Of a stretch of 64,000 bases of DNA, positions 39,660 to 55,605 are shown piece after piece. The notes below the pieces were generated by a model. That model worked only from the letters and a program-made list of their open reading frames with translations, did not search any database and was not told where the DNA came from. The position numbers and the translations under genes were made by a program. This DNA comes from Variovorax sp. S12S4 (GTDB lineage Bacteria; Pseudomonadota; Gammaproteobacteria; Burkholderiales; Burkholderiaceae_C): positions 5,805,001-5,869,000 of the forward strand of contig NZ_JALPKR020000002.1 of assembly GCF_023195515.1 (NCBI RefSeq). Reading direction: 5' to 3'. Within the stretch, counting starts at the first letter, position 1. Every line of letters begins with the position of its first letter.

Positions 39660-40940
39660 ATGAAATCCGGACTGAATTTCCTGATCGCCGCCAGAAAGTG
39701 CGAAATCGACGAGCTCGACCAGCTCGCGCGCACCAGCGACCTGGTCGGGCTGATCGCCCGGCTGGTTCATGCGCTGCAGCGGGAGCGCGGCATGTCCAAC
39801 GTGTTTCTCGCCTCGCGCGGGGTCCGCTTTGCCGACCAGCGCGATCCGCAGATCGCCGAATGCCTGGCGCTCGAGCAGGAGGTGCGCGCCGGCTTCGACC
39901 AGCTCGAAACCGAAGGCCGACCGGGCGCCACCGCGGGCAACAGCGCCCGCCTCTTCAGCCGCATTGCCTGGGTGCTTCCCGGCCTGGACGGCCTGCCCGC
40001 GCTGCGCCGCCGCGTCGGTGCGCTCGAACTGACGCCCGCGCAGGCCACCGCCGCTTACGCCAAGCTCGTTGCAGGCCTGCTGGCGGTGGTGTTCGAGGCC
40101 GCCGACGGCGCCACCGACCCCGAGATTTCGCGCCTGCTCGTCGCGATGTTCAACTTCATGCAGGGCAAGGAATTTGCCGGCCAGGAGCGCGCCTTCGGAG
40201 CCGGGTCATTGGCGGTGGGGCGTACCGACGAGGCGCAGCGCCAGCAATGGCTGCACCTCATCGAGCTGCAGGAGCGCTGCTTCCAGGTGTTCATCGACTT
40301 TTCCAGCAGCGGCGTGCTTGCGCTATGGCACCAGAGCCAGTCCGACGCCGTCATGGCCGAGATCGAGCGCCTGCGCCGCATGAGCGTGACCTCGGCCCAG
40401 GCGGCTTCGGCGGCCGCGCCCGATCCCCGGCTGAGCCAGAACTGGTTCGACTGCTGCACCCGCCGCATCGACGCCATGAAGACCGTCGAACACCGGCTGG
40501 CCGAAGAACTGCGCGAACTCTGCGCCCGCAAGATCGCGCAGGCCCGCGGCGAACTGCAGAAATACCACGAGGTGCTCGGCACCCTCGCGCCGCAGGCCGA
40601 AGGCGCGGTCTTCTTCGACGACATCGGTGCGGAGGCCACGGCGCCGGCGCAGTACGGGCGGCACCTCGAACGCTCGGTGCTCGACATGGTGCAGGAGCAA
40701 TCGCACCGGCTGCAGGCCATGAGCGAAGAGCTCGAAACCGTTCGCGCCTCCCTTAACGAGCGCAAGCTGGTCGAACGCGCCAAGGGCCTCCTGATGGCGC
40801 ACCGCCGCATGAGCGAGAACGAAGCCCACAAGATGCTGCTGCAGACCGCCATGAACCAGAAGCGCCGCCTGGTGGACGTGGCCGAGTCGATGCTCGCCAT
40901 GGCCGACTACCTGCCCCTGGATACGGCGTCGCGGCGCTGA
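39660..40940 (+). CDS. nasR: NIT-ANTAR nitrate/nitrite-responsive antiterminator, NasR-like
   Basis: This 426-residue cytoplasmic regulator has an N-terminal all-helical NIT sensor (about residues 30-300; [20 protein letters not shown] contains the arginines of the nitrate site) and a C-terminal ANTAR RNA-binding domain (about 365-420; [34 protein letters not shown]). In Klebsiella NasR, nitrate binding to NIT lets ANTAR disrupt a leader terminator; the equivalent leader lies immediately downstream here (41119-41298). A candidate sigma54 promoter sits 28 bp before the ATG. The symbol follows domain layout and context. Confidence 0.88.
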
Positions 40941-41092: not shown

Positions 41093-41108
41093 TGGCACGC
41101 AGTTTGCT
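41093..41108 (+). promoter_or_regulatory. Sigma54 promoter of the nitrate importer operon
   Basis: TGGCACGCAGTTTGCT is a full match to the sigma54 -24/-12 consensus (TGGCAC-N5-TTGCW). Initiation would fall near 41119, leaving a leader of about 180 nt before the binding-protein ATG. Upstream, a GTGC-GGC-GCAC palindrome at 40968-40978 could be half of an activator (NtrC) site, though it is shorter than the usual NtrC consensus. Confidence 0.8.
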
Positions 41109-41140
41109 GAAGTAGTACATGGACCCCTGGGTCCGAGGCA

Positions 41141-41166
41141 GGCAGCACCCAACGGCGGGTGTTGCC
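41141..41166 (+). promoter_or_regulatory. ANTAR-type hexaloop hairpin in the importer leader
   Basis: A 10-bp stem (GGCAGCACCC, 41141-41150, with GGGTGTTGCC, 41157-41166) closes the six-base loop AACGGC. Known ANTAR target RNAs have stems with hexanucleotide loops having invariant A at 1 and G at 4, both present here. A shorter hairpin, GGACC-CCTG-GGTCC (41121-41134), directly precedes it at the predicted RNA 5' end. The downstream terminator starts 15 nt later, so this is the probable binding site of the NasR-like protein. Confidence 0.75.
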
Positions 41167-41180
41167 CACCGAAATTGGAC

Positions 41181-41252
41181 AAAGGCGTCCCCCATCCCGC
41201 AAGGGCTCGTTTTCGAGCAGCCCCTGCGCGGTGCGGGACGCCTTTTTGTTTT
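41181..41252 (+). terminator. Leader terminator (attenuator) before the nitrate importer genes
   Basis: AAAGGCGTCCC (41181-41191) pairs with GGGACGCCTTT (41235-41245); the enclosed region holds an inner stem GGGCTCG-TTTT-CGAGCagCCC, and a T tract (41242-41252) follows. It ends 47 bp before the binding-protein ATG, so by default it would stop transcripts from the sigma54 promoter. Together with the ANTAR hairpin and the adjacent NIT-ANTAR gene it makes a nasF-like attenuation system. Confidence 0.88.
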
Positions 41253-41298: not shown

Positions 41299-42543
41299 AT
41301 GACCGACCTGCTGAAAACCCGTCTCAGCCGCCGCCGCGTACTGCAAGCCGCCGCCATTGGCGCCGTGGGAATCGATCCCGCCCTGCGCGCCGCCGTCTGG
41401 GCCCAGGGCTCCGACAAGCCGGAAAAGGAAGAAGTGAAGATCGGCTTCATTCCCCTGACCGACTGCGCCAGCGTGGTGATGGCCTCGGTGCTGGGCATCG
41501 ACAAGAAGTACGGCGTGAAGATCGTGCCCAGCAAGGAAGCCAGCTGGGCCGGCGTGCGCGACAAGCTCTCCAATGGCGACCTGGACATGGCGCACGTGCT
41601 CTACGGCCTTGTCTACGGCATGCACCTGGGCCTGAGCGGCCCCAAGAAGGACATGGCCGTGCTCATGACCCTCAACAACAACGGCCAGGCCATCACGCTG
41701 TCGAAGAAGCTGGCGGACAAGGGTGCGGTGGATGCCGCCTCGCTCGCCAAGCTCATCGCCACCGAAAAGCGCGAATACACCTTTGCGCAGACCTTTCCCA
41801 CGGGCACCCACGCAATGTGGCTCTACTACTGGCTGGCCTCGGCCGGCATCGACCCGTTCAAGGACGTCAAGAACATCACCGTGCCGCCTCCGCAGATGGT
41901 GGCCAACATGCGCGTCGGCAACATGGACGGCTACTGCGTGGGCGAGCCCTGGGGCCAGCGCGCGATCATGGACGGCATCGGCGTGACAGCGATCACCACG
42001 CAGGACATCTGGAAGGACCATCCGGAGAAGGTGCTCGGCACCACGGGCGACTTCGTCAAGAAGTACCCCAACACCGCGCGCGCCGTGACCGCGGCCATCA
42101 TCGAAGCGGGCAAGTGGATCGACACCGGCCTGCAGAACAAGAACAAGATGGCCGAGACCATTGCCGACAAGAGCTACGTCAACACCAGCGTCGATGCCAT
42201 CAACCAGCGCATCCTGGGCCGCTATGTCAACGGCATGGGCAAGAGCTGGGACGACCCCAACCACATGAAGTTCTACAACGGCGGCGCCGTGAGCTTCCCC
42301 TACCTGTCGGACGGCATGTGGTTCCTCACGCAGCACAAGCGCTGGGGCTTGCTGAAGGAGCACCCGGACTACCTGAAGGTGGCCACCGAGATCAACCGCA
42401 TCGACATCTACAAGCAGGCCGCCGCCGCCACGCAGACGCCGGTTCCCAAGGACGTGACGCGCACCAGCAAGCTGTTCGACGGCTCCGTGTGGGACGGCAA
42501 GGACCCGAAGAAATATGCCGACTCTTTCAAGATCCACGTCTGA
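41299..42543 (+). CDS. nrtA: Nitrate ABC transporter periplasmic binding protein, NrtA/NasF type
   Basis: This 414-residue binding protein has a Tat-type signal (SRRRVLQAAAIGAVG, about residues 10-24), then VKIGFIPLTDCASVVMASVLGIDKKYGVKI, the NrtA family opening. The conserved nitrate-pocket segments PTGTHAMWLYYWL and GNMDGYCVGEPW follow. It is exported folded, presumably to the periplasm. GGAG lies 10 nt before the ATG. It heads the importer operon, 22 bp before the permease. Confidence 0.92.
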   Translation: MTDLLKTRLSRRRVLQAAAIGAVGIDPALRAAVWAQGSDKPEKEEVKIGFIPLTDCASVVMASVLGIDKKYGVKIVPSKEASWAGVRDKLSNGDLDMAHVLYGLVYGMHLGLSGPKKDMAVLMTLNNNGQAITLSKKLADKGAVDAASLAKLIATEKREYTFAQTFPTGTHAMWLYYWLASAGIDPFKDVKNITVPPPQMVANMRVGNMDGYCVGEPWGQRAIMDGIGVTAITTQDIWKDHPEKVLGTTGDFVKKYPNTARAVTAAIIEAGKWIDTGLQNKNKMAETIADKSYVNTSVDAINQRILGRYVNGMGKSWDDPNHMKFYNGGAVSFPYLSDGMWFLTQHKRWGLLKEHPDYLKVATEINRIDIYKQAAAATQTPVPKDVTRTSKLFDGSVWDGKDPKKYADSFKIHV

Positions 42544-42565
42544 GACGCCTGAGGAGAAACACACC

Positions 42566-43504
42566 ATGGTCAGCGCCGTATTTCATTCGCCCCTGGATGC
42601 CTCGCTCCCTCTTCCGCGTGCGGGAGAGGGCCGGGGTGAGGGTGCGCCCCGCGCAGAAGCTGCCCCCCTCCCCACCCCACTCCTCAAAGTGGAGAAGGAG
42701 CAAAAGCAACGCACATCCATCGACCTGCGCGCCTTCTGGATGCGCGTGCTCCCACCGCTCGCGGGCTTCGGCCTGCTGGTGCTGATCTGGGAGCTGGTCG
42801 CCATGAAGAGCACCACCGGCTTTCCTTCGCCGCTCGCCACCTGGCAGCAGGCGCTCACGGTGTTCAGCGATCCGTTCTACAGCAAGGGGCCGAACGACCA
42901 GGGTGTGGGCTGGAATGTGCTCTCGTCGCTGCAGCGCGTGGCATTGGGCTTCGGGCTCGCGGCTGCAGTCGGTATTCCGGCTGGCTTTGCCATCGGACGC
43001 TTCGAGTTTCTTTCGCGCATGTTCAATCCGCTGATCAGCCTGCTGCGCCCCGTGTCGCCGCTGGCGTGGCTGCCGATCGGCCTGCTGGTGTTCAAGGGCG
43101 CCAACCCGGCCGCCATCTGGACCATCTTCATCTGCTCGATCTGGCCGATGGTGATCAACACCGCCGTGGGCGTGCAGCGCGTGCCGAGCGACTACATGAA
43201 CGTGGCCAAGGTGCTCAACCTCAGCGAATGGAAGATCTTCACCAAGATCCTCTTCCCCGCCGTGCTGCCCTACATGCTGACCGGCGTTCGCCTGGCGGTG
43301 GGCACCGCCTGGCTGGTGATCGTTGCGGCCGAAATGCTCACCGGCGGCGTCGGCATCGGCTTCTGGGTGTGGGACGAGTGGAACAACCTCAACGTCGCCA
43401 ACATCATCATCGCGATCTTCGTCATCGGCATCGTCGGCCTGGTGCTGGAGTTCGCGCTCATCAAGCTTGCAACCGCGTTCACGTTCGAAGAGGTGAAGTC
43501 ATGA
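42566..43504 (+). CDS. ntrB: Nitrate ABC transporter permease, NtrB type, with repeat-derived N-terminus
   Basis: This 312-residue inner-membrane permease has six helices; the conserved region LRPVSPLAWLPIGLLVFKGANPAAIWTIF and the EAA loop (VPSDYMNVAKVLNLSEWKIFTKILFPAVLPYMLTGVRLAVGTAW) are clear. The family-like sequence begins only at about residue 55 (RAFWMRVLPP). The first ~50 residues are low complexity, and residues 14-26 (LPLPRAGEGRGEG) are translated from a REP-like DNA repeat. AGGAG precedes the ATG at 42566. The stop overlaps a 20-codon open frame that links to the ATPase gene. Confidence 0.9.
   Translation: MVSAVFHSPLDASLPLPRAGEGRGEGAPRAEAAPLPTPLLKVEKEQKQRTSIDLRAFWMRVLPPLAGFGLLVLIWELVAMKSTTGFPSPLATWQQALTVFSDPFYSKGPNDQGVGWNVLSSLQRVALGFGLAAAVGIPAGFAIGRFEFLSRMFNPLISLLRPVSPLAWLPIGLLVFKGANPAAIWTIFICSIWPMVINTAVGVQRVPSDYMNVAKVLNLSEWKIFTKILFPAVLPYMLTGVRLAVGTAWLVIVAAEMLTGGVGIGFWVWDEWNNLNVANIIIAIFVIGIVGLVLEFALIKLATAFTFEEVKS
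42604..42646. repeat. REP-like palindromic repeat inside the permease coding sequence
   Basis: CCCTCTTCCGC (42607-42617) and GCGGGAGAGGG (42620-42630) form an 11-bp stem with one mismatch, followed by CCGGGGTGAGGGTGCGCC. From memory, this GAGAGGGCCGGGGTGAGGG block is a widespread intergenic repeat of proteobacterial genomes. Here it lies within the permease gene, read in frame as Leu-Pro-Leu-Pro-Arg-Ala-Gly-Glu-Gly-Arg-Gly-Glu-Gly. Confidence 0.75.
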
Positions 43505-43563
43505 GCCGCACGGCCGTTCTGAAGGCGAATACCGCAGCGCTGCTGCGCGGAGGTTTCCAATGA
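43501..43563 (+). CDS. 20-residue micro-ORF bridging permease and ATPase genes
   Basis: ATG 43501 overlaps the permease stop as ATGA, and its TGA at 43561-43563 overlaps the ATPase ATG (43560) as ATGA. The encoded peptide MSRTAVLKANTAALLRGGFQ has no recognisable domain. The Gly-Gly codons near its end provide GGAGG, the ribosome site for the ATPase. It may be a translational-coupling leader instead of a functional peptide. Confidence 0.5.
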   Translation: MSRTAVLKANTAALLRGGFQ

Positions 43564-44369
43564 ATGACGATTCCAAGTACATCGAGATCCACGACGTCGA
43601 GCAGCGCTTCAAGACCGCCAAGGGCAGCTTCCTGGCGCTGCAGGGCATCAACCTGAACGTGGCCAAGGGCGAGTTCATCACGCTCATCGGCCATTCGGGC
43701 TGCGGCAAGTCGACGCTGCTGAACCTGATTGCCGGCCTGACGACGCCCACGCAGGGCGTGCTGCTGTGCGCCAACCGCGAAATCAAGGGCCCCGGCCCCG
43801 AGCGCGCGGTGGTCTTCCAGAACCACTCGCTGCTGCCCTGGCTCACCTGCTTCGAGAACGTGTACCTCGCGGTCGAGCGCGTCTTTGCCGCCACCGAGAA
43901 CAAGGCGCAGTTGCGCGCACGCACCGATGCGGCGCTCGCAATGGTCGGCCTTACGCCAGCAGCGCAAAAGCGCCCCGGCGAGATCTCGGGCGGCATGAAG
44001 CAGCGCGTGGGCATTGCACGCGCTCTCTCGATGGAACCCAAGGTGCTGCTGATGGACGAACCCTTCGGCGCCCTGGACGCGCTCACGCGCGCCAAGCTGC
44101 AGGACGAACTGCTCGGCATCGTGCAGAAGACCCAGAGCACCGTCGTCATGGTCACGCACGACGTCGACGAAGCGGTGCTGCTGAGCGACCGCATCGTGAT
44201 GCTCACCAACGGCCCGGCCGCCACCATCGGCGAAGTGCTGAAGGTCGACATCGCACGTCCGCGCAACCGCGTCGAACTGGCCGAAGACCCGACCTATGTG
44301 CACGCCCGCAAGGCGGTGATCGATTTTCTCTACACGCGCCAGGCGCACGTGGAGAAGGTTGCGGCCTGA
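43560..44369 (+). CDS. nrtD: Nitrate ABC transporter ATPase, NrtD/NasD type
   Basis: This 269-residue ATPase energises the nitrate importer. It has Walker A GHSGCGKST (about residues 47-55), Q-loop VVFQNHSLLPWLT, signature ISGGMKQR, Walker B VLLMDEPFGALDALTR and switch histidine VTHDVDEA. The HSLLPWLT segment is characteristic of nitrate/taurine-type ATPases. There is no C-terminal NrtA-like fusion of the cyanobacterial NrtC kind. It converges on the ANTAR-PilJ gene 25 bp away. Confidence 0.92.
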   Translation: MNDDSKYIEIHDVEQRFKTAKGSFLALQGINLNVAKGEFITLIGHSGCGKSTLLNLIAGLTTPTQGVLLCANREIKGPGPERAVVFQNHSLLPWLTCFENVYLAVERVFAATENKAQLRARTDAALAMVGLTPAAQKRPGEISGGMKQRVGIARALSMEPKVLLMDEPFGALDALTRAKLQDELLGIVQKTQSTVVMVTHDVDEAVLLSDRIVMLTNGPAATIGEVLKVDIARPRNRVELAEDPTYVHARKAVIDFLYTRQAHVEKVAA

Positions 44370-44394: not shown

Positions 44395-45687
44395 TCAGGA
44401 CATGATGACTTGCAGGCTGTGCTCGTACCAGGCGGTGAGCCGCTCGAAAGTGTCCACCAGCGCTTCGCTGGAACGCACCAGCGTGGCGCGGCCTTCAGGG
44501 CTTTCGAGTGCCTGCACGCCGCCGACCAGGCGCAGCCATTCGTCCCGCGCGGCCGCCAGTGCAGCGCGAATCTCGGGTGAACTGAGGGGCGCGCGCTCCA
44601 GCTCCAGCAGCGCCGCCTCGAACTCGTTCATGGTCGGCAGCAGCCGTTCGCGCGAAGGCCCTGCAGCGAGCGCCGAAGCCAGCAACGCGTCCTTGGCCAG
44701 GCGCTGTGCGCGCATGCGCTGCCGCCCGCAGATGTTGACGATGCGCAGCGCACGCCGCGCGCCGGAGGCTTCGAGCGCATCGGTCAGCGCCTCGGCCGCG
44801 GCCAGCAGCTCGTCGCCGAGCTTGTCGATGTCAGCCAGCGCCTGCGGCACCGCGCGCGCCGCCAGCGCGGCGGAAAGCCCGCTCCACGCAGCCTGCACAT
44901 CGCCCAGCGCGCCCGCGCCCGGGGCGCCCAGCTCAAGGGTGGCCAGGTGATCCAGGTTCTGCTGCACCCGCTCGACCGATTGCGTGCGCAACACGCGCGC
45001 ACGCTGCACGTCGATGCCGGCAAGCATCTGAGCGGCAATCCGCACCAGCCGCTGCGACAGCATGCGCAGTTGCCCGGCGCGGTTGATCGCGTCGGCCCAC
45101 TGCGCGGCCTCGATTACCGAGCGCGACACCTCGCCCAGCCGCAGGTTGGCATGCATGGCCGCGCCGCGGAGCAAGCCGAAGGCCTCGTCCTCCCCGATGC
45201 CGCGGGACGACATCAGCAGGCCCTTGGCGCGGTCGACCCATTTGCGTTCATCCATGCGCGTGCGCAAGCCGTCGAGTTCGGTGCGCAGCGCGGCCTCGCG
45301 TTCACGCCGGACCGGCGCGAGGGTCATCAGCGCGCGAAGCGAGGTGCCATCGAAAGCTTCGATCGGCAGCCACGCATGCACGCCCAGAGCAACCAGCGCT
45401 TCGTGCTGGGCGCTGTCCAGCGGTGCGCTGACGAGGCTCAGCCCGCAAGGAGGCGTGCCCTTCCATTCGCCGACAGCATCGAGCAGCGCCTGCAGCTGTT
45501 GCGCCGGTGCGGGCAGCCAGGCCATCACCTGTTGCGGTGCAAGCGCACCCACCTTCTGCACCAGCGTGTGGCAGGTGCTCCGCTCGACGGCAGCGACGCC
45601 GGTGCTCGCCAGCGCCTGCTGCAGAGGCTCCGGCAGCGGCGCGGATTCGGCGAAATCATTGGGCAGAACGACAAGAAGGGACATCAT
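44395..45687 (-). CDS. Receiver-like + ANTAR + PilJ-type sensor fusion protein (NasT-related)
   Basis: This 430-residue soluble protein combines three parts: an N-terminal ~125-residue receiver-like region without an evident phosphoacceptor aspartate, an ANTAR RNA-binding domain (about 137-195, MDERKWVDRAKGLLMSSRGIGEDEAFGLLRGAAM), and a C-terminal all-helical PilJ-type module (about 197-430) with two repeats of the R-x-R-M-x-x-QR motif (AGQLRMLSQR at 204-213, CGRQRMRAQR at 320-329). The REC+ANTAR half is NasT-like; NasT is normally held by the nitrate sensor NasS, absent here. The PilJ half shares motif pairs with the secreted protein at 51460, so it may itself be the sensor. Two ATGs (45687, 45684) begin it. 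Confidence 0.82.
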   Translation of the reverse strand: MMSLLVVLPNDFAESAPLPEPLQQALASTGVAAVERSTCHTLVQKVGALAPQQVMAWLPAPAQQLQALLDAVGEWKGTPPCGLSLVSAPLDSAQHEALVALGVHAWLPIEAFDGTSLRALMTLAPVRREREAALRTELDGLRTRMDERKWVDRAKGLLMSSRGIGEDEAFGLLRGAAMHANLRLGEVSRSVIEAAQWADAINRAGQLRMLSQRLVRIAAQMLAGIDVQRARVLRTQSVERVQQNLDHLATLELGAPGAGALGDVQAAWSGLSAALAARAVPQALADIDKLGDELLAAAEALTDALEASGARRALRIVNICGRQRMRAQRLAKDALLASALAAGPSRERLLPTMNEFEAALLELERAPLSSPEIRAALAAARDEWLRLVGGVQALESPEGRATLVRSSEALVDTFERLTAWYEHSLQVIMS

Positions 45688-45739
45688 GGAAAAGCGGTTG
45701 GGGGCACGGCAAGCATAGGCCACGCCCGCGCATTTGCGC

Positions 45740-45755
45740 AGGCACGTCTCTTGCA
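45740..45755 (+). promoter_or_regulatory. Putative sigma54 promoter of narK
   Basis: AGGCACGTCTCTTGCA matches TGGCAC-N5-TTGCA except the first base, with GG and GC correctly spaced. Initiation would be near 45766, exactly at the foot of a hexaloop hairpin (45767-45786) and about 180 nt before the transporter ATG, the same layout as the importer operon. Confidence 0.65.
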
Positions 45756-45766
45756 TCGACACGGGT

Positions 45767-45786
45767 GCGGTGTAACGAAGCACCGC
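45767..45786 (+). promoter_or_regulatory. Second ANTAR-type hexaloop hairpin, narK leader
   Basis: GCGGTGT (45767-45773) pairs with GCACCGC (45780-45786), six Watson-Crick pairs plus a closing T-G, around the loop AACGAA (A1, G4). The first four loop bases are identical to those of the importer hairpin. A tight TGCAGGCTCCTGCA palindrome follows at about 45798-45811 and a GCCGaCAGCG/CGCTGcCGGC stem at about 45850-45871, but no T tract, so the regulated step is unclear. Confidence 0.6.
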
Positions 45787-45944
45787 TTTGGTGAGGCTGC
45801 AGGCTCCTGCATCCATCCTGGCTGCGCAATGGCCGGGAAGCACCCCCACGCCGACAGCGTTCGCTGCCGGCATTCCGCCCCAACCCCGTCTGTCGACTCG
45901 GCCCTCCAAAGGCTGCGCCGCGGCATTTCGCACGATTGAACGCC

Positions 45945-47210
45945 ATGTCCAGTTTCAGGACCTTCTTGCACTCAGGCCACGGCCCGACGCTGTTCGCGGC
46001 CTTTCTGTACTTCTCGTTCTCCTGCTGCATCTGGGTGCTCAACGGCGCCATGGCGCCGTTCATCGGCGAAACCTTCGATCTTTCGCCTGCGCAAAAGGGG
46101 CTGATGCTGTCGGTGCCCATCATCGCGGGTGCGCTCATGCGCTTTCCGCTCGGCATCCTCTCGCAATACATCGGCCGCAAGAACGCCACGCTGGTCGAGA
46201 TGGGCCTGATCGCGGTGGCGATGCTGTTCGGCTTCTTCTTCGTGAAGAGCTTCAACGACCTGCTGGCCATGGGCGTGCTGCTGGGCATTGCGGGCGCCAG
46301 TTTCGGCGTGGCGCTGTCGCTGGGTTCGGGCTGGTTCCCGCCGCAGCACAAGGGCCTGGCCATGGGCCTGGTGGGCGCCGGCAACGTGGGCACGGCGGTG
46401 TCGGTGCTGGTGGCGCCGCCGCTCGCGCAATGGCTCGGCTGGCAGGCGGTGTATGCCGTGGCGGCCGCCGCCATTCTGGTGCCGATGGTCGTGATGGTGC
46501 TGTTCGCCAAGGAGCCGCCCGATGTCGACAGCCACGCGAGCTTCCGCGAGCACATCGCCTGCCTGTTCGAAAAAGACGGCTGGGTGTTCAGCCTGATCTA
46601 CGGCGTGACCTTCGGCGGCTTCATCGGCCTCATCACCTTCCTGCCCTCTTACTACTACGACCAGTTCGGCGTGAGCAAGGTGCAGGCGGGGCAACTCACC
46701 ATGCTGGCGGCCTTCATGGGCGCGGCGGTGCGCATCGTCGGCGGCTGGATCTCCGACCGCTGGGGCGGCGTGAACACGCTGACCGTAGTGCTGCTTGTCG
46801 TGGCCGTCGGTCTCGTGCTGGTGGGCATCTCGTCGGCATCGCTTGCGCTCACCACGCTGCTCCTGATCTTGTGCTTTGCCGCCCTGGGCGCGGGCAACGG
46901 CGCGCTGTTCCAGCTGGTGCCGCTGCGCTGGCCCACCAGCACCGCCGTGGCCGGTTCGATGATCGGCGAAATCGGCGCGCTGGGCGGCGGCCTGGTGCCC
47001 AACGCCATGGGCCTGTCGAAGCAATACCTCGGCAGCTACGTCTGGGGCTTCGTGTTCTTCGGCGTGCTGTCGCTCGTCATGCTGGGCGTGATGCGCGTGA
47101 TGCAGATCCGCTGGACCCGCACCTGGGCCGAAAAAGGCGGCCGTGCGCGCACCACGCCCTCACCGGCTCCGGCCAAGTACACCGCTCCACCGAAGGCAAC
47201 GCGGCCATGA
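45945..47210 (+). CDS. narK: Nitrate/nitrite transporter, NarK/NasA MFS family
   Basis: This 421-residue 12-helix major facilitator moves nitrate and/or nitrite across the inner membrane. FLYFSFSCCIWVLNGAMAPFIGETFDLSPAQKGLML and the two nitrate signature regions (GIAGASFGVALSLGSGWFPPQHKGLAMGLVGAGNVGTAV and GALGGGLVPNAMG) are evident. The ATG at 45945 is preferred over the in-frame TTG at 45936. In this setting it belongs to the assimilatory pathway. It converges on the phosphatase/kinase gene with 17 bp between. Confidence 0.92.
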   Translation: MSSFRTFLHSGHGPTLFAAFLYFSFSCCIWVLNGAMAPFIGETFDLSPAQKGLMLSVPIIAGALMRFPLGILSQYIGRKNATLVEMGLIAVAMLFGFFFVKSFNDLLAMGVLLGIAGASFGVALSLGSGWFPPQHKGLAMGLVGAGNVGTAVSVLVAPPLAQWLGWQAVYAVAAAAILVPMVVMVLFAKEPPDVDSHASFREHIACLFEKDGWVFSLIYGVTFGGFIGLITFLPSYYYDQFGVSKVQAGQLTMLAAFMGAAVRIVGGWISDRWGGVNTLTVVLLVVAVGLVLVGISSASLALTTLLLILCFAALGAGNGALFQLVPLRWPTSTAVAGSMIGEIGALGGGLVPNAMGLSKQYLGSYVWGFVFFGVLSLVMLGVMRVMQIRWTRTWAEKGGRARTTPSPAPAKYTAPPKATRP

Positions 47211-47227: not shown

Positions 47228-48928
47228 TCAGCGTGGCAGAAAAAGCAGCCACACCACGAGCAGTGCGTTGAACAGCAGCGACACGGCGAGCGCGATCTTG
47301 TAGAGCGCGGCCGGGTCGCGGCGGATCAGCGGCGTGGCGGGCGGCGCACCCACCGGGCGGGACGCGCCCCGCTCCAGGGCGAGCAGCATTTCCTCGGCGG
47401 TCTCGAAGCGTTCGCGCGGATCGCGTGCAACGGCCTTGCGCACCAGATGGTCGAGCCACACGGGCACGTCGGGCCGCAGGCGCGAGAGCGCGGCCGGGTC
47501 GCGCCGGTAGCGCGCCACCTGGTAGGGCTCGATCTCTCCGTAGGGCAAGTGTCCGCCAAGCCATTGGTACAGCGTGACGCCGAGCGCGAACAGGTCGCTG
47601 CCCGTGTCGGCGGGGGCGCCCTCCCATTGCTCGGGATTGATATAACTGGGCGTGCCCGCATGCAGCTCGCGCTGGGCCGCGCCTTCGCGGCCCGACAGCG
47701 CCACGCCCAGGTCGAGAATGCGCCAGCGGCCGTCGTCGCCCAGGTGCAGGTTGCCGGGCTTGATGTCGCGGTGCACCACGCCGTGGCGATGCAGCCGGCC
47801 CAGCGCCTTGGTCACTTCGATGGCCGCGGTGACCACCTCGGCCACCGCGCCGCGCGCGCCGGACTTTCGCATCTGCTCCAGCGTGCGTCCGCCATGCCAG
47901 TCGAACACGATGTAGAGCGCGCTGGCGTTCTCGGCGCGCTCGTGCACCCGCACGAATCCACCGCTTCCCACGCGCTGGCCCAGCCAGGCTTCGTGCGCAA
48001 GCATCGCGCGCTCCTGCGGATCGCTGGCGCGCGAGGGGTGCAGCGTCTTGAGCGCCACCAGTTCGCGCGTGGCGGCGTTGCGCGCCTGGTAGAGCAGGTG
48101 CACGCCGGTATCGGCCACCAAGGCGGTGACCACGTAGCCGTCGAGCACGTCGCCCACCTTCAGCAAGGGCGGCGGCGCCAGTCTGCGGCCGTCTCCGAGT
48201 TCGTCGTCCAGCTGCCGCGGATCGAGGCCGACGACGCGAATGACCAAGGCGGTCGCGTTGTCGCGCGTACCGGCCTCGAGAGCCGCGTTCACCAGCGCCT
48301 CGCTCGCCTGCTCGGCGCTGCCCTGCAAGGCGATAGCGGCCAGGCGCTGCGGCTTGAGCACGCCGTGCACGCCGTCGGACGTGAGCACGAAGCAGTCGCC
48401 CACGCGCACATCGCCCTGCGCGTAGTCGACGCGCACCTGGTCGTCCAGGCCGATGGCGCGCGTCAAGCGGCTGCGCATGTCGGGATGCTCGAAGGCATGG
48501 TCCTGCGTCAGCGGCATGGCCGGCTCGCCGTCGGCGCGCACGCGCCATGCGCGCGTGTCGCCCACATGCGCGAGCGTGTAGCTCTGGCCGTGCAGCACCA
48601 GCGCCGTGAGCGTGGTGAGCGCGGTCGCGCTGCCTTGGCGGCGCCGGTTGTGATCGGCAAGCCAGGCGTTCTGCGCCGCCACCAGGCGGTCGAGCGCGGC
48701 GGTCGGCTCCCAGGTGTCGGGCGTGGCGAAGTAGTCGGCCAGGAGGCCCATCACGGTGGTCTGCGCCGCTTCCAGGCCGCGTCCGCCGGTGGACACGCCG
48801 TCGGCAATGGCGGCAATGAGCCCGCGCGACTCGTCCCCCGGCGGTGCGTTGACGGCACCGGCAAAGTCTTCGTTCACTTCGCGCGGTCCGCGCTGGCTGC
48901 TGTAGCCGATGTCCACTTCAAAGCTCAT
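47228..48928 (-). CDS. Bifunctional PP2C-type phosphatase / Ser-Thr protein kinase with C-terminal membrane anchor
   Basis: This 566-residue protein has an N-terminal PP2C domain (about 1-240; metal aspartates in REVNEDF, AIADGVSTGG, LTSDGVHG and TRDNAT), a eukaryotic-like kinase domain (about 255-530; VALKTLHP lysine, HRDIKPGNLHL catalytic loop, LDLGVA in place of DFG) and one transmembrane helix at the C-terminus (ALAVSLLFNALLVVWLLFLP). LDLG retains the metal aspartate. The kinase lacks a textbook glycine loop. From memory, Pseudomonas aeruginosa has a similar kinase gene between nasA and nirB, so the placement is conserved. Targets are unknown. Confidence 0.9.
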   Translation of the reverse strand: MSFEVDIGYSSQRGPREVNEDFAGAVNAPPGDESRGLIAAIADGVSTGGRGLEAAQTTVMGLLADYFATPDTWEPTAALDRLVAAQNAWLADHNRRRQGSATALTTLTALVLHGQSYTLAHVGDTRAWRVRADGEPAMPLTQDHAFEHPDMRSRLTRAIGLDDQVRVDYAQGDVRVGDCFVLTSDGVHGVLKPQRLAAIALQGSAEQASEALVNAALEAGTRDNATALVIRVVGLDPRQLDDELGDGRRLAPPPLLKVGDVLDGYVVTALVADTGVHLLYQARNAATRELVALKTLHPSRASDPQERAMLAHEAWLGQRVGSGGFVRVHERAENASALYIVFDWHGGRTLEQMRKSGARGAVAEVVTAAIEVTKALGRLHRHGVVHRDIKPGNLHLGDDGRWRILDLGVALSGREGAAQRELHAGTPSYINPEQWEGAPADTGSDLFALGVTLYQWLGGHLPYGEIEPYQVARYRRDPAALSRLRPDVPVWLDHLVRKAVARDPRERFETAEEMLLALERGASRPVGAPPATPLIRRDPAALYKIALAVSLLFNALLVVWLLFLPR

Positions 48929-49012
48929 GGCGCCATTCTCCATGTGCTTTCCACGCACTTTGCACGCGCACCGCGTGCTTCCTTTGCTTGAAACGTTGAA
49001 AGGCCCCACCCC

Positions 49013-51445
49013 ATGAAGAAACTCAAGCTCGTGATGGTCGGCAACGGCATGGCCGGCGTGCGCACCCTGGAGGAGCTCCTGAAGCTCGCGCCGGACATGT
49101 ACGACATCACCGTCTTCGGTGCCGAGCCGCACCCTAACTACAACCGCATCCTGCTGTCCCCCGTGCTCGCGGGCGAGCAGACCGTGGACGAGATCGTGCT
49201 CAACAGCTGGGAGTGGTACTCGGACAACCACATCACCCTGCACGCGGGCAAGAAAGTCGTCGAAGTCGACCGCGTCAAGCGCATCGTGCGCGCCGAGGAT
49301 GGCACCGAGGCCCCCTACGACCGCCTCCTGATGTGCACCGGCTCCAACCCCTTCATGCTCCCGGTGCCCGGCAAGGACCTGAAGGGCGTGATCGCCTACC
49401 GCGACATCGCCGACACCGACTACATGATCGAGACCGCCCGCACCCACAAGAACGCGGTGGTCATCGGCGGGGGCCTCCTGGGCCTGGAGGCGGCCAACGG
49501 CCTCATGCTGCGCGGCATGAGCGTCACCGTGGTGCACGTCATGCCCTGGCTCATGGAGCGCCAGCTGGACGACGTGGCCGGCAAGCTGCTGCAGAAGTCT
49601 TTGGAAGACCGCGGCCTGAAGTTCCTCATCGGCGCCCAGACCCAGGAGCTCGTGGGCAATGACCAGGGCCGGGTGTCCGCCATCCGCTTCAAGGACGGCA
49701 CCGAGGTCGCCGCCGACCTGGTCGTCATGGCTGTCGGCATCCGCCCCAACACCGAGCTGGCCGAGAAGATGCGCCTGCACTGCAACCGCGGCATCGTGGT
49801 CAACGACACCATGCAGACCGTGACCGATGCGCGCATCTACTCGGTGGGCGAATGCGCCGCCCACCGCGGCATCGCCTACGGGCTGGTCGCCCCCCTCTTC
49901 GAGCAGGCCAAGGTCGCGGCCAACCACCTGGCCCAGTTCGGCATCGGGCGCTACCTGGGCTCGCTCACCTCCACCAAGCTCAAGGTCACGGGCATCGACC
50001 TCTTCTCGGCCGGCGAGTTCATGGGCGGCGAAGGCACCGAGGAGATCGTCATGAGCGACCCCTTCGGCGGGGTCTACAAGAAGCTGGTGATCAAGGACGA
50101 CAAGCTGGTGGGCGCGTGCCTGTACGGCGACACGGTGGACGGCAGCTGGTACTTCAAGCTCTTGCGCGACGGGCGCAGCGTGCACGACATCCGCGACAAG
50201 CTGATGTTCGGCGAATCGAACATCGGCGACACCGGCCACGAGGGCCACAACAAGGCCGCCAGCATGCCCGACGAGGCCGAGGTGTGCGGCTGCAACGGCG
50301 TGACCAAGGGCACCATCTGCAAGGCGATCAAGGAAAAGGGCCTGTTCACGCTGGACGAGGTCAAGAAGCACACCAAGGCCAGCGCCAGCTGCGGCTCGTG
50401 CACCGGCCTCGTGGAGCAGATCCTGATGTTCACCGCCGGCGGCGACTATTCGGCCACGCCCAAGAAGAAGGCGGTGTGCGGCTGCACCGATGCGAGCCAC
50501 CAGGAGGTGCGCGACGCCATCAGGAAGGACCACCACCTGACGCACGACGCGGTGTACCGCCACCTGGGCTGGCGCACGCCCAACGGCTGCGCGACCTGCC
50601 GCCCGGCCGTGAACTACTACCTGATCAGCACCTGGCCCAAGGAGGCCAAGGACGATCCGCAGAGCCGCTTCATCAACGAGCGCAGCCACGCCAACATCCA
50701 GAAGGACGGCACCTATTCGGTGATTCCGCGGATGTGGGGCGGCCACACCACGCCGGACGAGCTGCGGCGCATCGCGGATGCGGCGGACAAGTACAAGATC
50801 CCCACCGTCAAGGTCACGGGCGGCCAGCGCATCGACCTGTTGGGGGTGAAGAAGGAAGACCTGGAGGGGGTGTGGAAGGACATCGGCATGCCGTCGGGCT
50901 TTGCCTATGCCAAGAGCCTGCGCACGGTGAAGACCTGCGTGGGCAGCGAGTGGTGCCGCTTCGGCACGCAGGATTCGACCCAGATGGGCAAGGACCTGGA
51001 GCGGGCGCTGTGGGCGATGTATTCGCCGCACAAGGTCAAGCTGGCGGTCTCGGGCTGCCCGCGCAACTGCGCGGAGGCCGGGATCAAGGACGTGGGGGTG
51101 ATCGGGGTGGATTCGGGCTGGGAGCTCTATGTGGGGGGCAACGGCGGCATCAAGACGGAGGTGGCGCAGTTCCTGGTGAAGGTGAAGACGGCCGCCGAGG
51201 TGATGGAGTACTCGGGGGCGTTCCTGCAGCTGTACCGCGAGGAAGGCTGGTACCTGGAGCGCACGGTGCACTACATCGGGCGGGTGGGGCTGGACTATGT
51301 GAAGAAGAAGATCCTCGAAGACGAAGCCGGACGCAAGGCGCTGTGGGAGCGGCTGCAGTTCGCGCTGGACGGGGAGCCGGATCCTTGGTTCGAGTCGAGC
51401 CAGGCTTCTGTGGATGTGCGGCAGTTCACGCCGCTCACGGTGTAA
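49013..51445 (+). CDS. nirB: Assimilatory nitrite reductase large subunit NirB
   Basis: This 810-residue siroheme enzyme reduces nitrite to ammonium with NAD(P)H. It has an N-terminal FAD/NAD domain (VMVGNGMAGVRTLEELLK; VIGGGLLGLEAANGL), two BFD-like [2Fe-2S] regions (CGCNGVTKGTIC...CGSCTG, and CGCTDASHQ...CATC), and the siroheme/[4Fe-4S] motifs TCVGSEWC and GCPRNCAEA. A hairpin GCACGCG-CAC-CGCGTGC lies at 48962-48978 just upstream. It is divergent from the phosphatase/kinase and heads nirB-pilJ-nirD-nasA. Confidence 0.97.
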   Translation: MKKLKLVMVGNGMAGVRTLEELLKLAPDMYDITVFGAEPHPNYNRILLSPVLAGEQTVDEIVLNSWEWYSDNHITLHAGKKVVEVDRVKRIVRAEDGTEAPYDRLLMCTGSNPFMLPVPGKDLKGVIAYRDIADTDYMIETARTHKNAVVIGGGLLGLEAANGLMLRGMSVTVVHVMPWLMERQLDDVAGKLLQKSLEDRGLKFLIGAQTQELVGNDQGRVSAIRFKDGTEVAADLVVMAVGIRPNTELAEKMRLHCNRGIVVNDTMQTVTDARIYSVGECAAHRGIAYGLVAPLFEQAKVAANHLAQFGIGRYLGSLTSTKLKVTGIDLFSAGEFMGGEGTEEIVMSDPFGGVYKKLVIKDDKLVGACLYGDTVDGSWYFKLLRDGRSVHDIRDKLMFGESNIGDTGHEGHNKAASMPDEAEVCGCNGVTKGTICKAIKEKGLFTLDEVKKHTKASASCGSCTGLVEQILMFTAGGDYSATPKKKAVCGCTDASHQEVRDAIRKDHHLTHDAVYRHLGWRTPNGCATCRPAVNYYLISTWPKEAKDDPQSRFINERSHANIQKDGTYSVIPRMWGGHTTPDELRRIADAADKYKIPTVKVTGGQRIDLLGVKKEDLEGVWKDIGMPSGFAYAKSLRTVKTCVGSEWCRFGTQDSTQMGKDLERALWAMYSPHKVKLAVSGCPRNCAEAGIKDVGVIGVDSGWELYVGGNGGIKTEVAQFLVKVKTAAEVMEYSGAFLQLYREEGWYLERTVHYIGRVGLDYVKKKILEDEAGRKALWERLQFALDGEPDPWFESSQASVDVRQFTPLTV

Positions 51446-51459
51446 GCGGGGGAAGCTTC

Positions 51460-52239
51460 TTGAAAAGACGACTCTTCATCGCTTCTTCCGCGCTTGCCGC
51501 AGTGGGCGCCCGCGCGCAGGTGGCCGACCTCAACGACGCCATCAACAAGGCGGGCCGCCAGCGCATGCTGTCGCAGCGCGCGAGCAAGGCTTATCTCGCG
51601 CTGGCGCAGAAAGTGGAAACGCGCAGCGCGCAACAAGTACTGGACAAATCGATTGCCCTGTTCGAAAGGCAGCTGACCGAGCTCAAGGCCTTCGCACCGA
51701 GCCCCGCCATTCGCGGCACCTACGACGCACTCGACGGCGCATGGAGCGAATTCAAGCGCGAGCTCACCGGCCCTTCGCTCGGCAAGGAAGAAGCCGCCCG
51801 GATCGTCAAGCTCGATGCCGCCGTGCTCGCGCTTGCAAACCAGGGCACCACGCAGTACGAAACCGCCTCGGGCAAGCCGGTGGGCCGGCTGGTGAATATC
51901 GCAGGCCGGCAGCGCATGCTGTCCCAGCGCATGGCCAAGTTCTACCTGGCGGGCGCGATGCAGATCGACGCCACCGGCAGCACGGCAGAAATTGCAAAGG
52001 CGCGCGGCGAATTCCTTGCCGCGCTCGAAACCCTGCGCAACGCGCCTGAAGCCACCGCGCAGATCCGCCAGGAACTGGTGCTCGCCGACGCGCAGTGGAT
52101 GTTCTTCAACCGCGGCCTTCAGCGCCTCGAAGGCGCGGCAACCTCACCCGCCCTGATGTCCGACGTGTTCGTGGCCAGCGAGAACCTGCTGGCCATCATG
52201 GACCGCGTGACCGGCCTGTATTCCGACCTCAAAACCTAG
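51460..52239 (+). CDS. Secreted PilJ-type (methyl-accepting transducer N-terminal-like) protein
   Basis: This 259-residue protein starts at TTG 51460, supported by GGGGGAAG upstream and a signal peptide MKRRLFIASSALAAVGARAQ; reading further upstream runs through nirB. The mature part is all-helical with two copies of AGRQRMLSQR (about residues 31-40 and 148-157), the hallmark of the PilJ/type IV pili methyl-accepting N-terminal domain, here without membrane helix or signalling domain. It lies 14 bp after nirB and 10 bp before nirD, so it is co-translated with nitrite reductase. It may be a periplasmic nitrate/nitrite-binding component. Confidence 0.8.
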   Translation: MKRRLFIASSALAAVGARAQVADLNDAINKAGRQRMLSQRASKAYLALAQKVETRSAQQVLDKSIALFERQLTELKAFAPSPAIRGTYDALDGAWSEFKRELTGPSLGKEEAARIVKLDAAVLALANQGTTQYETASGKPVGRLVNIAGRQRMLSQRMAKFYLAGAMQIDATGSTAEIAKARGEFLAALETLRNAPEATAQIRQELVLADAQWMFFNRGLQRLEGAATSPALMSDVFVASENLLAIMDRVTGLYSDLKT

Positions 52240-52249
52240 AGACCCCACC

Positions 52250-52675
52250 ATGAGCGAATGGAAAGCCATCTGCCGTATCGACGACATCCCCGTGCTGGGC
52301 GCCCGCCGCGTGGCTCGCCCCGTGGGTGTGGCCGTTGCCGTGTTCCGCAATTCAGAAGACCAGGTGTTCGCGCTGCTCGACCGTTGCCCCCACAAGGGCG
52401 GCCCATTGAGCCAGGGCATCGTGTTCGGTACCAGCGTGGCCTGCCCGCTGCACAACTGGGCCATCGGGCTGGACGACGGCTGTGCCAAGTCGCCCGACGA
52501 AGGATGCACGCCGAAGTTTGCCGTGAAGGTCGCCGAGGGCGTGGTGCACCTGGATGCGGAAGAACTCAAGACGCATGCGATCGACCTGGCACCGCCCCGC
52601 GCCGGCCCCGGCGCCGCAACGGCCGGCAAGCTGGGCGACGAGACCTTCGACGTGCAGGCGCCGCACGGCAGCTAG
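52250..52675 (+). CDS. nirD: Nitrite reductase small subunit NirD (Rieske type)
   Basis: This 141-residue Rieske-like protein has CPHKGGPLSQG and CPLHNWAIGLDDG, the Cys-x-His/Cys-x2-His pair of a [2Fe-2S] site (about residues 47-72). The C-terminal 30 residues are Ala/Gly-rich and longer than in E. coli NirD. It follows the PilJ-type gene by 10 bp and precedes nasA. Confidence 0.93.
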   Translation: MSEWKAICRIDDIPVLGARRVARPVGVAVAVFRNSEDQVFALLDRCPHKGGPLSQGIVFGTSVACPLHNWAIGLDDGCAKSPDEGCTPKFAVKVAEGVVHLDAEELKTHAIDLAPPRAGPGAATAGKLGDETFDVQAPHGS

Positions 52676-52697: not shown

Positions 52698-52856
52698 ATG
52701 GAAGAAACTCGCTCCACCTGCCCCTATTGCGGCGTGGGCTGCGGACACGCCTTCGGCGGTCCGCTTCGCGGCGCATGTGGACGCCGCAACCTCCTTCTCT
52801 TATCCAACCATGGCTGAGACTCGCTCCACCTGCCCCTATTGCGGCGTGGGCTGCGG
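52698..52856 (+). repeat. Direct duplication of the 5' end of nasA
   Basis: ATG 52698 begins a near-copy (52698-52744) of the first 47 bases of nasA (52810-52856); differences are confined to codons 2-4. The first copy encodes MEETRSTCPYCGVGCG and then runs into unrelated codons and stops at 52815-52817. The intervening 65 bp show no insertion-sequence features. The first copy carries the four-cysteine-type motif of nasA but lacks the rest, so it is a dead 39-codon start or a decoy initiation region. Confidence 0.85.
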
Positions 52857-55605
52857 TGTGATCATCGAATCCGACGGCGCGCAGATCACCGGCGTGCGCG
52901 GGGACCCCGACCACCCGGCCAACTTCGGGCGCCTTTGCACCAAGGGCTCGACACTGCACCTCACGGCAACAGCCACGGTCACACGCCAGACGCGGCTGCT
53001 GCAGCCGATGCAGCGCGCCGCGCGCGGCGCCGAGCCGGCACCCGTGGCGTGGAACACCGCGCTCGACGGCGCAGTCGACAAGTTCGCGCAGGTCATTCGC
53101 GACCACGGGCCCGACGCCGTGGGCTTCTATGTCTCGGGCCAGTTGCTCACCGAGGACTACTACGTCTTCAACAAACTCGCCAAGGGTTTGATCGGCACCA
53201 ACAACATCGACACCAACTCGCGCCTGTGCATGAGCAGCGCGGTGGCCGGCTACAAGCAGACGCTGGGCGCCGATGCGCCGCCCGCCTGCTATGACGACCT
53301 GAAGCATGCCGAGTGCCTTTTCATCGTGGGCAGCAACGCCGCTTGGGCGCACCCGATTCTTTTTCGCCGCATCGAGGACGCGAAGGCCGCCAACCCGGGC
53401 ATGAAGATCATCGTGGCCGATCCGCGCCGCACCGACACGGTGGAAATTGCCGACCTGTTCCTGCCCATCCAGCCCGGCACCGATGTCATGCTGTTCAACG
53501 GCATGCTGCACCTGATGCTGTGGGAAGGCTGGACCGACAACCGCTATATCGCGGCCCACACCACGGGCTTCGATGCATTGAAGGCCACGGTGCGCGAATG
53601 CACGCCCGACAAGGTGGCGCAGATCTGCGGCATCTCGAAGGAAGACCTGCTTGCCGCGGCACGCATGTTCGCAACTTCGCCCGCCACGCTGAGCCTGTAT
53701 TGCCAGGGCCTCAACCAGTCGTCCAGCGGCACCGCCAAGAATGCGGCGCTGATCAACTTGCACCTGGCCACCGGCCACATCGGCAAGCCCGGCGCCGGCC
53801 CGTTCTCGCTCACCGGCCAGCCCAACGCCATGGGCGGGCGCGAAGTGGGCGGCCTGGCCAACCTGCTGAGCGCGCACCGCGACCTGGCCAACCCCGCGCA
53901 CCGCGCGGAAGTGGCGGCGCTGTGGAACCTGCCCTCCGTGCCCGAGAAGCCCGGCAAGACCGCGGTCGAGATGTTCCAGGCCGCCGCCGACGGAGAGATC
54001 CGCGCGCTGTGGATTGCCTGCACCAACCCCGCCCAATCGATGCCCGACCAGGCCACGGTGCGCCGCGCCCTCGAGCGCGCCGAATTCGTCGTGGTGCAAG
54101 AGGCTTTTTCGACCACATCGACCTGCGCCTTCGCCGACCTGCTGCTGCCCGCCACCACCTGGGGCGAGAAGGAAGGCACAGTGACCAACAGCGAGCGCCG
54201 CATCTCGCGCGTGCGCCCCGCGGTGGCTGCGCCCGGCGAGGCACGCCACGACTGGTCGATTGCCGTCGACTTTGCACGCCGCCTCGAACAGCGGCTCGGC
54301 CGGACGGCCACGCTGTTCCCCTACGGCTCGGCCGAACAGGTATGGAACGAGCATCGCGAATCCACCCGCGGGCGTGACCTCGACATCACCGGCCTGAGCT
54401 ACACCATGCTCGAAACGGCCGGGCCCCAGCAATGGCCGCTGAAAGAAGGCGAGACCACCGGCCGCGCCCGGCTCTACGAAGACGGCGTTTTTCCCACGCC
54501 GGATGGCCGCGCACGCTTCGTCGATACCGTCTACAAACCCGTGGCCGAGGCGCGCGAGGCGCGCTATCCTTTCTCGCTCAACACGGGCCGCCTGCGCGAC
54601 CAATGGCACGGCATGAGCCGCACCGGCACGGTCGGCCGCCTGTTCGGCCACGTGGCCGAGCCGGTGGTGCAGATGAACGCGCAGGACATGGCACGCCGCC
54701 TCCTGAAAGACGGCGACCTGGTGCACCTCACCTCCAAGCGCGGCTCCATCCTGCTGCCCGCGCGCGCCAGCGCCGAGATCGGCCTGAGCCAGGCTTTCGT
54801 CGCCATGCACTGGGGCGAGGAATACCTGAGCGGCTGCTCGTCGACCGGCACGCCGCTGGCCGGCATCAATGCGCTGACCACGCCGGCCTACTGCCCCACG
54901 TCGAAGCAGCCCGAGCTCAAGCACACGCCGGTCAAGATCCTCAAGGCCGAGTTGCCATGGTCGCTGCTCGCCATGGCCTGGCTGCCGCCCGATGCCGCCT
55001 TTGCCGCGCAGCAGGCGCTCAAGCCGCTGATGGCGATGTTTCCGTTTGCCACCTGCGTGCCGTTCTCGGGCAACACGCCGGGCGAAGAGCGCAGCGGCAT
55101 CCTCTTTCGCGCGGCCGCGCACGACACGCCGGACGACAGCCTCGTCGACCGCATCGAAGGCGTGCTTGGCCTGGGTGCAAGCGATGCCCTGCGCTACGCC
55201 GACCGCCGACGCGGCCAGCGCCGCGTGGCCCGGCTGGTGCGCCGCGCCGACGGCAATGCAGGGCTCGAAGCCTTCCTGCTGGGCGGCGACACCAGCGCCG
55301 AGGCCTGGATCGGCACCTTGCTGCGCGAGGAAATTCCGGCCCAAACCTATGGCCGGCTCCTGCTGTCGCCGGGCGCCCGCGCGCCGGTGGCGGTGCAGTC
55401 CCGCGGGCAAACGGTGTGCACCTGCTTCAACGTGACCGACCTGGCCATCCAGGGTGAACTGGGCCGCTGCAGCGGCACGCCCGAGGAGCGGCTGGCCTCG
55501 CTGCAAGGCGCGCTCAAATGCGGCACCAACTGCGGCTCCTGCCTGCCCGAACTCAAGCGCATGGTGCGGGCAACGCCGGTGGAGGTTCTCGCGGAGGGTG
55601 CGTAG
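52810..55605 (+). CDS. nasA: Assimilatory nitrate reductase catalytic subunit NasA
   Basis: This 931-residue cytoplasmic molybdoenzyme reduces nitrate to nitrite. It has an N-terminal [4Fe-4S] motif (CPYCGVGCG...GRLCTKG), the molybdopterin oxidoreductase core (SRLCMSSAVAGYK, GSNAAWAHPI, QGLNQSSSGTAKN), a molydopterin dinucleotide-binding domain (about 590-710) and a C-terminal BFD-like [2Fe-2S] domain (CTCFNVTD...CGTNCGSC). The extra C-terminal cluster is typical of Klebsiella/proteobacterial NasA that receive electrons from a separate flavoprotein; no such nasC gene is in view. ATG 52810 is preferred over the duplicated start at 52698. Confidence 0.96.
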   Translation: MAETRSTCPYCGVGCGVIIESDGAQITGVRGDPDHPANFGRLCTKGSTLHLTATATVTRQTRLLQPMQRAARGAEPAPVAWNTALDGAVDKFAQVIRDHGPDAVGFYVSGQLLTEDYYVFNKLAKGLIGTNNIDTNSRLCMSSAVAGYKQTLGADAPPACYDDLKHAECLFIVGSNAAWAHPILFRRIEDAKAANPGMKIIVADPRRTDTVEIADLFLPIQPGTDVMLFNGMLHLMLWEGWTDNRYIAAHTTGFDALKATVRECTPDKVAQICGISKEDLLAAARMFATSPATLSLYCQGLNQSSSGTAKNAALINLHLATGHIGKPGAGPFSLTGQPNAMGGREVGGLANLLSAHRDLANPAHRAEVAALWNLPSVPEKPGKTAVEMFQAAADGEIRALWIACTNPAQSMPDQATVRRALERAEFVVVQEAFSTTSTCAFADLLLPATTWGEKEGTVTNSERRISRVRPAVAAPGEARHDWSIAVDFARRLEQRLGRTATLFPYGSAEQVWNEHRESTRGRDLDITGLSYTMLETAGPQQWPLKEGETTGRARLYEDGVFPTPDGRARFVDTVYKPVAEAREARYPFSLNTGRLRDQWHGMSRTGTVGRLFGHVAEPVVQMNAQDMARRLLKDGDLVHLTSKRGSILLPARASAEIGLSQAFVAMHWGEEYLSGCSSTGTPLAGINALTTPAYCPTSKQPELKHTPVKILKAELPWSLLAMAWLPPDAAFAAQQALKPLMAMFPFATCVPFSGNTPGEERSGILFRAAAHDTPDDSLVDRIEGVLGLGASDALRYADRRRGQRRVARLVRRADGNAGLEAFLLGGDTSAEAWIGTLLREEIPAQTYGRLLLSPGARAPVAVQSRGQTVCTCFNVTDLAIQGELGRCSGTPEERLASLQGALKCGTNCGSCLPELKRMVRATPVEVLAEGA

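Follow-up and report, generated by a model that had tools for sequence, protein, structure and literature searches.

Which protein carries the nitrate signal in an assimilation locus that encodes receiver-like, RNA-binding and sensor regions in one chain? The question is raised by a stretch of 64,000 nucleotides (hereafter, the window) from the soil bacterium Variovorax sp. S12S4 (contig NZ_JALPKR020000002.1, positions 5,805,001 to 5,869,000). Here, a minus-strand gene at 44395..45687 encodes a 430-residue fusion of a pseudo-receiver, an ANTAR domain and tandem PilJ units, assigned by domain searches and predicted fold. The domains, predicted fold, motifs, synteny, sigma54-like sites and hairpins with double changes described below are computational observations. 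Taken together, they make it probable that the fusion is a one-component, nitrate-responsive (possibly nitrite-responsive) RNA-binding regulator of the narK-nirBD-nasA leader, acting alongside a NasR-like protein for nrtABC.

The open reading frame is intact, with 430 codons on the minus strand and ATG at 45687, and no export signal was seen by eye in the protein. Pfam and profile searches place the ANTAR domain at residues 141-192 (45112..45267, minus strand; Pfam E-value 4e-18). PilJ (PF13675) is matched by Pfam in two stretches after it (E-value 8e-18). No receiver was matched by Pfam in the fusion protein, and PF00072 was matched in 5 of 82 aligned relatives; this alignment (A1) consists of P0001 and 81 proteins picked from the lists of the best 120 matches. 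The profile of the 82 proteins matches the receiver KdpE (1zh2, E-value 2e-8) in PDB and, over the receiver and ANTAR regions together, Rv1626 (1s8n, 6e-25) and EutV (6wsh, 6e-22). The receiver-fold domain covers approximately residues 1-125 (45313..45687, minus strand) by profile, alignment and model. The positions of its phospho-Asp and Lys are variable among the 82 proteins, and therefore the domain is regarded as a pseudo-receiver. A phospho-relay role was rejected on the same ground.

The first PilJ four-helix unit extends over approximately residues 199-309 (44761..45093) and the second over residues 310-430 (44398..44760), both on the minus strand and both recognized by Pfam, model and motifs. 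Their N-boxes are INRAGQLRMLSQ at residues 201-212 (45052-45087, minus strand) and VNICGRQRMRAQ at residues 317-328 (44704-44739, minus strand). N-box 1 fits 11 of the 12 positions of the consensus given in a passage of PMC6381276 and includes G-x-x-R, which is kept in nearly all aligned relatives. An earlier note on this DNA, made from the letters alone, had described a receiver-like region, an ANTAR domain and one C-terminal helical module with paired R-x-R-M-x-x-QR motifs. The first is borne out by the profile and the predicted fold even though Pfam shows none, and the second by Pfam. The third holds with a correction: the paired motifs, conserved in the 82 proteins, belong to two PilJ units and represent their N-boxes. 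ANTAR and PilJ are both found by Pfam in the best 120 listed proteins of each of three protein searches. Because the best-listed relatives carry both families and the motifs are kept in the alignment, the architecture is not a product of chance, and a chance read-through was rejected.

The AlphaFold model of the fusion has a mean pLDDT (predicted local distance difference test) of 92.3 and a pTM (predicted template modelling score) of 0.65; therefore, the domains are confident and their relative placement is less so. The N-terminal domain adopts the receiver fold. The C-terminal half is a helical bundle of the PilJ/NIT type, in agreement with the earlier proposal. A single unbroken helix, residues 166-222, runs from the end of the ANTAR domain into the first PilJ helix.

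Among 200 genomes surveyed in the same family, with 8 candidates scored in each, 36 have a match that extends in a single frame from ANTAR through to the C-terminus. The match of G395, split across two contigs, was counted additionally, giving 37 fusion genomes. The lists of class- and order-level matches were screened for matches with the same span. They revealed the fusion in 2 of 276 genomes (G000 and G048; 6 candidates scored per genome) and in 3 of 300 genomes (G000, G048 and G201; 5 candidates scored per genome), respectively; G201 belongs to another family. For synteny, twenty 20-kb stretches were taken from the 36 genomes and the window proteins were placed on them with tblastn. In all 20 loci, the fusion and the next nitrate gene are transcribed divergently; this neighbour is of the narK type in 15 loci (with just 24% identity in one) and is nirB in the other 5.

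In the NasR system of Klebsiella oxytoca, the nasF promoter depends on sigma54 and NtrC. In the window, the divergent narK gene has a sigma54-type promoter element, GGCACGTCTCTTGCA, at 45741..45755 (plus strand), and close to the 5' end of its leader lies an ANTAR-type hairpin, GCGGTGT[AACGAA]GCACCGC (45767..45786, plus strand), whose hexaloop has both A1 and G4. ANTAR proteins bind paired hairpins with A1 and G4, according to passages of PMC3369931 and PMC7496416. The corresponding leaders were compared in a set of 21, consisting of the window and the 20 related loci. The best sigma54-like site beats nearly all shuffles in the 21 leaders; at most 5.5% of 200 shuffles reach its score, and none do in 11 leaders. 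The hairpin loop begins 17-21 bases past this site in 20 leaders and 26 bases past it in L142, whose stem contains one unpaired cell. A blind scan for a hexaloop with G4 within 40 bases recovered hairpins in 20 of the 21 leaders with a stem of at least 5 (2.26 expected from shuffles) and in 19 with a stem of at least 6 (0.85 expected). When the register is set by eye, all 21 leaders have G4, 15 have A1 and 6 have G1. In the 22-column hairpin alignment, 95.2% of cells are paired, against 26-52% when the partners are slid, and both sides have changed in 5 of 7 stem pairs (30 cells). None of 500 covariation shuffles reaches the cell count or the score, and 8 reach the number of pair types. Stems with T-runs were seen by eye in the related leaders L136, L139 and L147.

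A sigma54-type element, GGCACGCAGTTTGCT, also precedes nrtA in the window, at 41094..41108, and the nrtA leader itself (41141..41247) includes two hexaloop hairpins and a terminator-like stem, all on the plus strand. Hairpin P1, with the loop AACGGC, lies at 41141-41166, and P2, with the loop AAAGGC, at 41177-41190; P2 overlaps the terminator-like stem, which has a T-run (41181-41247). The fold z-score of this leader is -4.42. Below-threshold Rfam matches to P11 (29.8 bits, threshold 70) and narK RNA (25.2 bits, threshold 43.2) cover 41081-41242 of the plus strand, which suggests that these two families may be ANTAR-type leaders. Rfam families were rejected as an account of the narK-side leader, with no match at the gathering threshold in the 20 loci; within 37500-58000 of the window, P11 and narK RNA matched below threshold only the nrtA leader and nothing on the narK side. 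The motif GGCAYNNNNNTTGCW occurs three times in the whole window, always on the plus strand before nitrate genes: at 39618 before the NasR-like gene, at 41094 before nrtA, and at 45741 before narK. The expected number is 0.88, and three were reached by 5 of 100 shuffles. The sigma54-like site at 39618-39632 (plus strand), the third of its kind, lies just upstream of the NasR-like gene.

The locus is arranged in the order NasR-like gene, nrtA, nrtB, nrtC, the fusion (minus strand), narK, a kinase/phosphatase gene (minus strand), nirB, a stand-alone PilJ gene, nirD and a nasA-type gene. The NasR-like gene (39660..40940, plus strand) encodes a NIT-ANTAR regulator (NIT E-value 1.8e-55, ANTAR E-value 8.6e-17). 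The nrtABC genes for the ATP-binding cassette (ABC) nitrate transporter follow at 41299..44369 (plus strand), with NrtB and NrtC reaching the NCBIfam cut-offs. The narK-type nitrate/nitrite transporter of the major facilitator superfamily, divergent from the fusion, is encoded at 45936..47210 (plus strand; TIGR00886, E-value 2e-71, below the cut-off). A gene for a PP2C phosphatase/Ser-Thr kinase lies within the locus at 47228-48958 (minus strand), and in 15 of the 20 related loci such a gene is found close to the fusion or to narK. Downstream, on the plus strand, are nirB (49013..51445; TIGR02374, E-value 4.7e-280), nirD (52250..52675; TIGR02378, E-value 5.6e-24) and the nasA-type molybdopterin oxidoreductase gene (52750..55605, exact start not fixed). 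The last was named by its place, the nitrate reductase and formate dehydrogenase models of NCBIfam being below their cut-offs. Between nirB and nirD sits a gene for a stand-alone tandem-PilJ protein (51460..52239, plus strand) with two exact N-boxes and, by eye, a signal-like N-terminus; it is possibly a periplasmic nitrate-binding protein. Similar genes were found in 5 of the 20 related loci. At E-value 0.001, the window genome has PilJ matches in three places and just two ANTAR proteins, the NasR-like protein and the fusion.

The earlier note had taken the PilJ module to replace the separate sensor NasS in a locus without another nitrate sensor. The second part of this claim fails: the NasR-like gene, which adjoins nrtABC, had been missed. 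The first part stands insofar as the sensor and the ANTAR domain share one chain; since a NasR-like NIT-ANTAR regulator is already at the locus, the PilJ module of the fusion is not a simple stand-in for NasS. The earlier interpretation is partly supported. Instead of replacing NasS, the module probably makes the fusion a second one-component regulator of the locus, placed with the narK-nirBD-nasA genes. The absence of a NasS-like gene agrees with the genome search, in which no NasS ortholog stood out in the window genome with one NasS-type query, an NrtA-like protein in which no export signal was seen by eye and whose gene adjoins a receiver-ANTAR gene. Its best matches there coincide with the two strong genes of the NrtA/NasS family in this genome: nrtA and another transporter-type gene, which is followed by a permease gene. 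The best match is nrtA in all six genomes in which it was placed (G000, G048, G306, G420, G447 and G472). In the survey of fusion genomes for NasS, which the earlier note had suggested, no match at E-value 0.001 was found in 3 of the 37 (G415, G357 and G465). The identity exceeds 40% in one, G471, where ABC transporter genes come after a gene with 49% identity, and it is 40% or less in the remaining ones; outside the six genomes named above, NrtA and NasS were told apart by identity alone.

The following sequence of events is proposed. The C-terminal tandem-PilJ module would hold the anion between the N-box arginines R208 in helix 1 and R324 in helix 5; the motifs and the fold suggest this binding of nitrate or nitrite. 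Binding would alter the long helix common to the ANTAR and PilJ regions, so that the ANTAR domain would be freed or dimerized, if the allosteric direction is as drawn here. The ANTAR domain, and not the NasR-like protein alone, would then bind the hexaloop hairpin with which the leader of the divergent narK gene begins. In this way, transcription from the sigma54 promoter would read on into narK and further down into nirB-nirD-nasA, the genes from narK to nasA presumably forming one unit. The pseudo-receiver may serve for dimerization or domain contacts with no phosphorylation. The nrtABC genes would be served by the NasR-like protein, or by a receiver-ANTAR protein in other genera. The effect of the fusion on its leader is likely to be antitermination; as the narK leader has one strict hairpin, no terminator and a weak fold, we can only infer this step for narK.

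Several observations weigh against this mechanism. On the RNA side, no terminator-like site with a T-run was found in 45650-45990, and a second strict A1/G4 hairpin was not found in the narK leader of the window. One strict hairpin is present in 4.2% of shuffles of this leader, which folds only slightly better than shuffles (z-score -1.65). Five doubly changed pairs arise in 40 of 500 shuffles, and the register was picked by eye. On the protein side, N-box 2 fits only 9 of the 12 consensus positions, with G-x-x-R present. The sensor module is comparable in fold to NasR (4akk) across 255 residues; neither NasR nor McpN was among the best 50 Foldseek matches, both emerging in a second comparison, and a high Z-score may lack specificity when helical bundles are compared. 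According to a passage of PMC6381276, nitrate was not bound by the tandem PilJ receptor domain of Pseudomonas aeruginosa. Finally, the NasR-like protein could serve both leaders in the window genome.

This last point leads to an alternative in which the NasR-like protein (39660-40940) governs both the nrtA and narK leaders and the fusion is a modulator, such as a competitor, a co-dimer partner or a negative regulator. Hexaloop hairpins are present in both leaders, and the nrtA leader, with its terminator-like stem, is of the textbook kind. Of 25 Variovorax stretches, 20 contained NasR-like genes; of the other five, four end approximately 3.5 kb or less from the 3' side of the fusion, and L021 does not. 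Across the fusion genomes, however, NIT at E-value below 1e-30 was found in only 9 of 37, whereas a G4 hexaloop lies beside the fusion in 20 of 21 leaders. A second strong ANTAR match exists in 26 of the 37 (G395 included) and the only other match is weak (E-value above 1e-8) in nine more, but G454 and G410 have no ANTAR match at E-value 0.001 other than the fusion. The nrtABC genes (67% identity or more) are within the stretch in five related loci, and a separate ANTAR gene precedes nrtA in all five: NIT-ANTAR in L143, and receiver-ANTAR in L136, L139, L147 and L151, the kind being read directly in the first three and taken from a tblastn match in L151. These receiver-ANTAR (NasT-type) genes lie directly upstream of nrtA at 13761-14465 in L136, 13688-14344 in L139 and 13499-14134 in L147, all on the minus strand, and tblastn with NrtA revealed no further NasS-like gene in these three stretches. 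Control of both leaders by the NasR-like protein is considered unlikely.

It is also quite unlikely, though conceivable, that the fusion regulates the same RNA leader while its PilJ module senses something other than nitrate or nitrite, or is signalled to by the stand-alone PilJ protein. Some PilJ and NIT domains do not bind nitrate according to a passage of PMC6381276, N-box 2 is degenerate, and a stand-alone tandem PilJ is encoded between nirB and nirD. On the other hand, G-x-x-R is retained in nearly all aligned relatives, the placement beside nitrate/nitrite genes is constant, and the stand-alone gene was found in only 5 of 20 related loci. It is very improbable that the fusion is a NasT-like protein governed by an unrecognized NasS-like partner such as NrtA: its N-terminal half resembles receiver-ANTAR proteins and the pseudo-receiver ANTAR protein AmiR works with a partner, AmiC (in a passage of PMC3369931), but within the window genome the NasS-type query is best matched by NrtA and by a second transporter-type protein followed by a permease, and three of the 37 fusion genomes have no such match at E-value 0.001.

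A nitrate-responsive fusion acting on the narK leader is retained as the preferred reading, and it gives assimilatory nitrate/nitrite reduction a likely sensor-regulator in some of the Burkholderiales. No description of an ANTAR-PilJ protein was found in the literature searched, judged mostly by titles and the starts of abstracts, and PilJ domains in "transcriptional regulators" are mentioned, with none named, in a passage of PMC6381276. The pair of domains is already visible in sequence databases, where relatives bear domain- or class-type names only: "ANTAR domain-containing protein", "AmiR/NasT family response regulator", "antitermination regulator" and "type IV pili methyl-accepting chemotaxis transducer N-terminal domain-containing protein". 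There is an even chance that one-component nitrate antiterminators exist in at least two separate builds, NIT-ANTAR (NasR) and pseudo-receiver-ANTAR-tandem PilJ, the latter a single-chain pseudo-dimer copying the NIT site with arginines from helices 1 and 5. The two would then work side by side in Variovorax, on nrtABC and narK-nirBD-nasA, respectively, possibly tuned to nitrate versus nitrite.

Among known systems, the receiver-ANTAR layout of EutV, AmiR and Rv1626 is similar to the fusion over approximately residues 1-183. The fusion differs from them by its additional C-terminal sensor, and its receiver lacks the phosphorylation residues, as do AmiR-type pseudo-receivers. The receiver-ANTAR half is likewise similar to NasT of the NasS-NasT system, except that phospho-Asp and Lys are absent from the fusion. 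The target class is the same, leaders of nitrate assimilation genes (PMC3795266), whereas the sensor is fused to the protein and no NasS ortholog stood out in the window genome. McpN, NarX and NarQ have, like the fusion, PilJ-type four-helix units whose first helix contains G-x-x-R. They are membrane-anchored receptors in which nitrate is bound between two identical chains, as described in passages of PMC6381276 and PMC8199190; the fusion, in contrast, has two PilJ units in one chain, joined to an RNA-binding domain.

The NIT-ANTAR protein NasR of Klebsiella oxytoca (PDB 4akk) resembles the fusion in having a helical sensor and an ANTAR domain in one chain and a hexaloop leader as its target. 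In the fusion, the domain order is reversed with the sensor at the C-terminus, a pseudo-receiver is added, and two PilJ units are present instead of NIT. The NIT domain (PF08376) was searched for in the fusion and no Pfam match was found at E-values up to 1, and therefore the fusion is placed outside the NIT-ANTAR family. Sequence homology between NIT and tandem PilJ was rejected: hhalign gave a probability of 0.4% with a shallow NIT alignment, and the likeness is in fold only. The most economical account, by analogy, is that the fusion works like NasR without being a member of its family. The NIT and tandem-PilJ modules may be two solutions to one nitrate-binding design, and the fusion and NasR offer a natural comparison of a sensor gating ANTAR from opposite ends.
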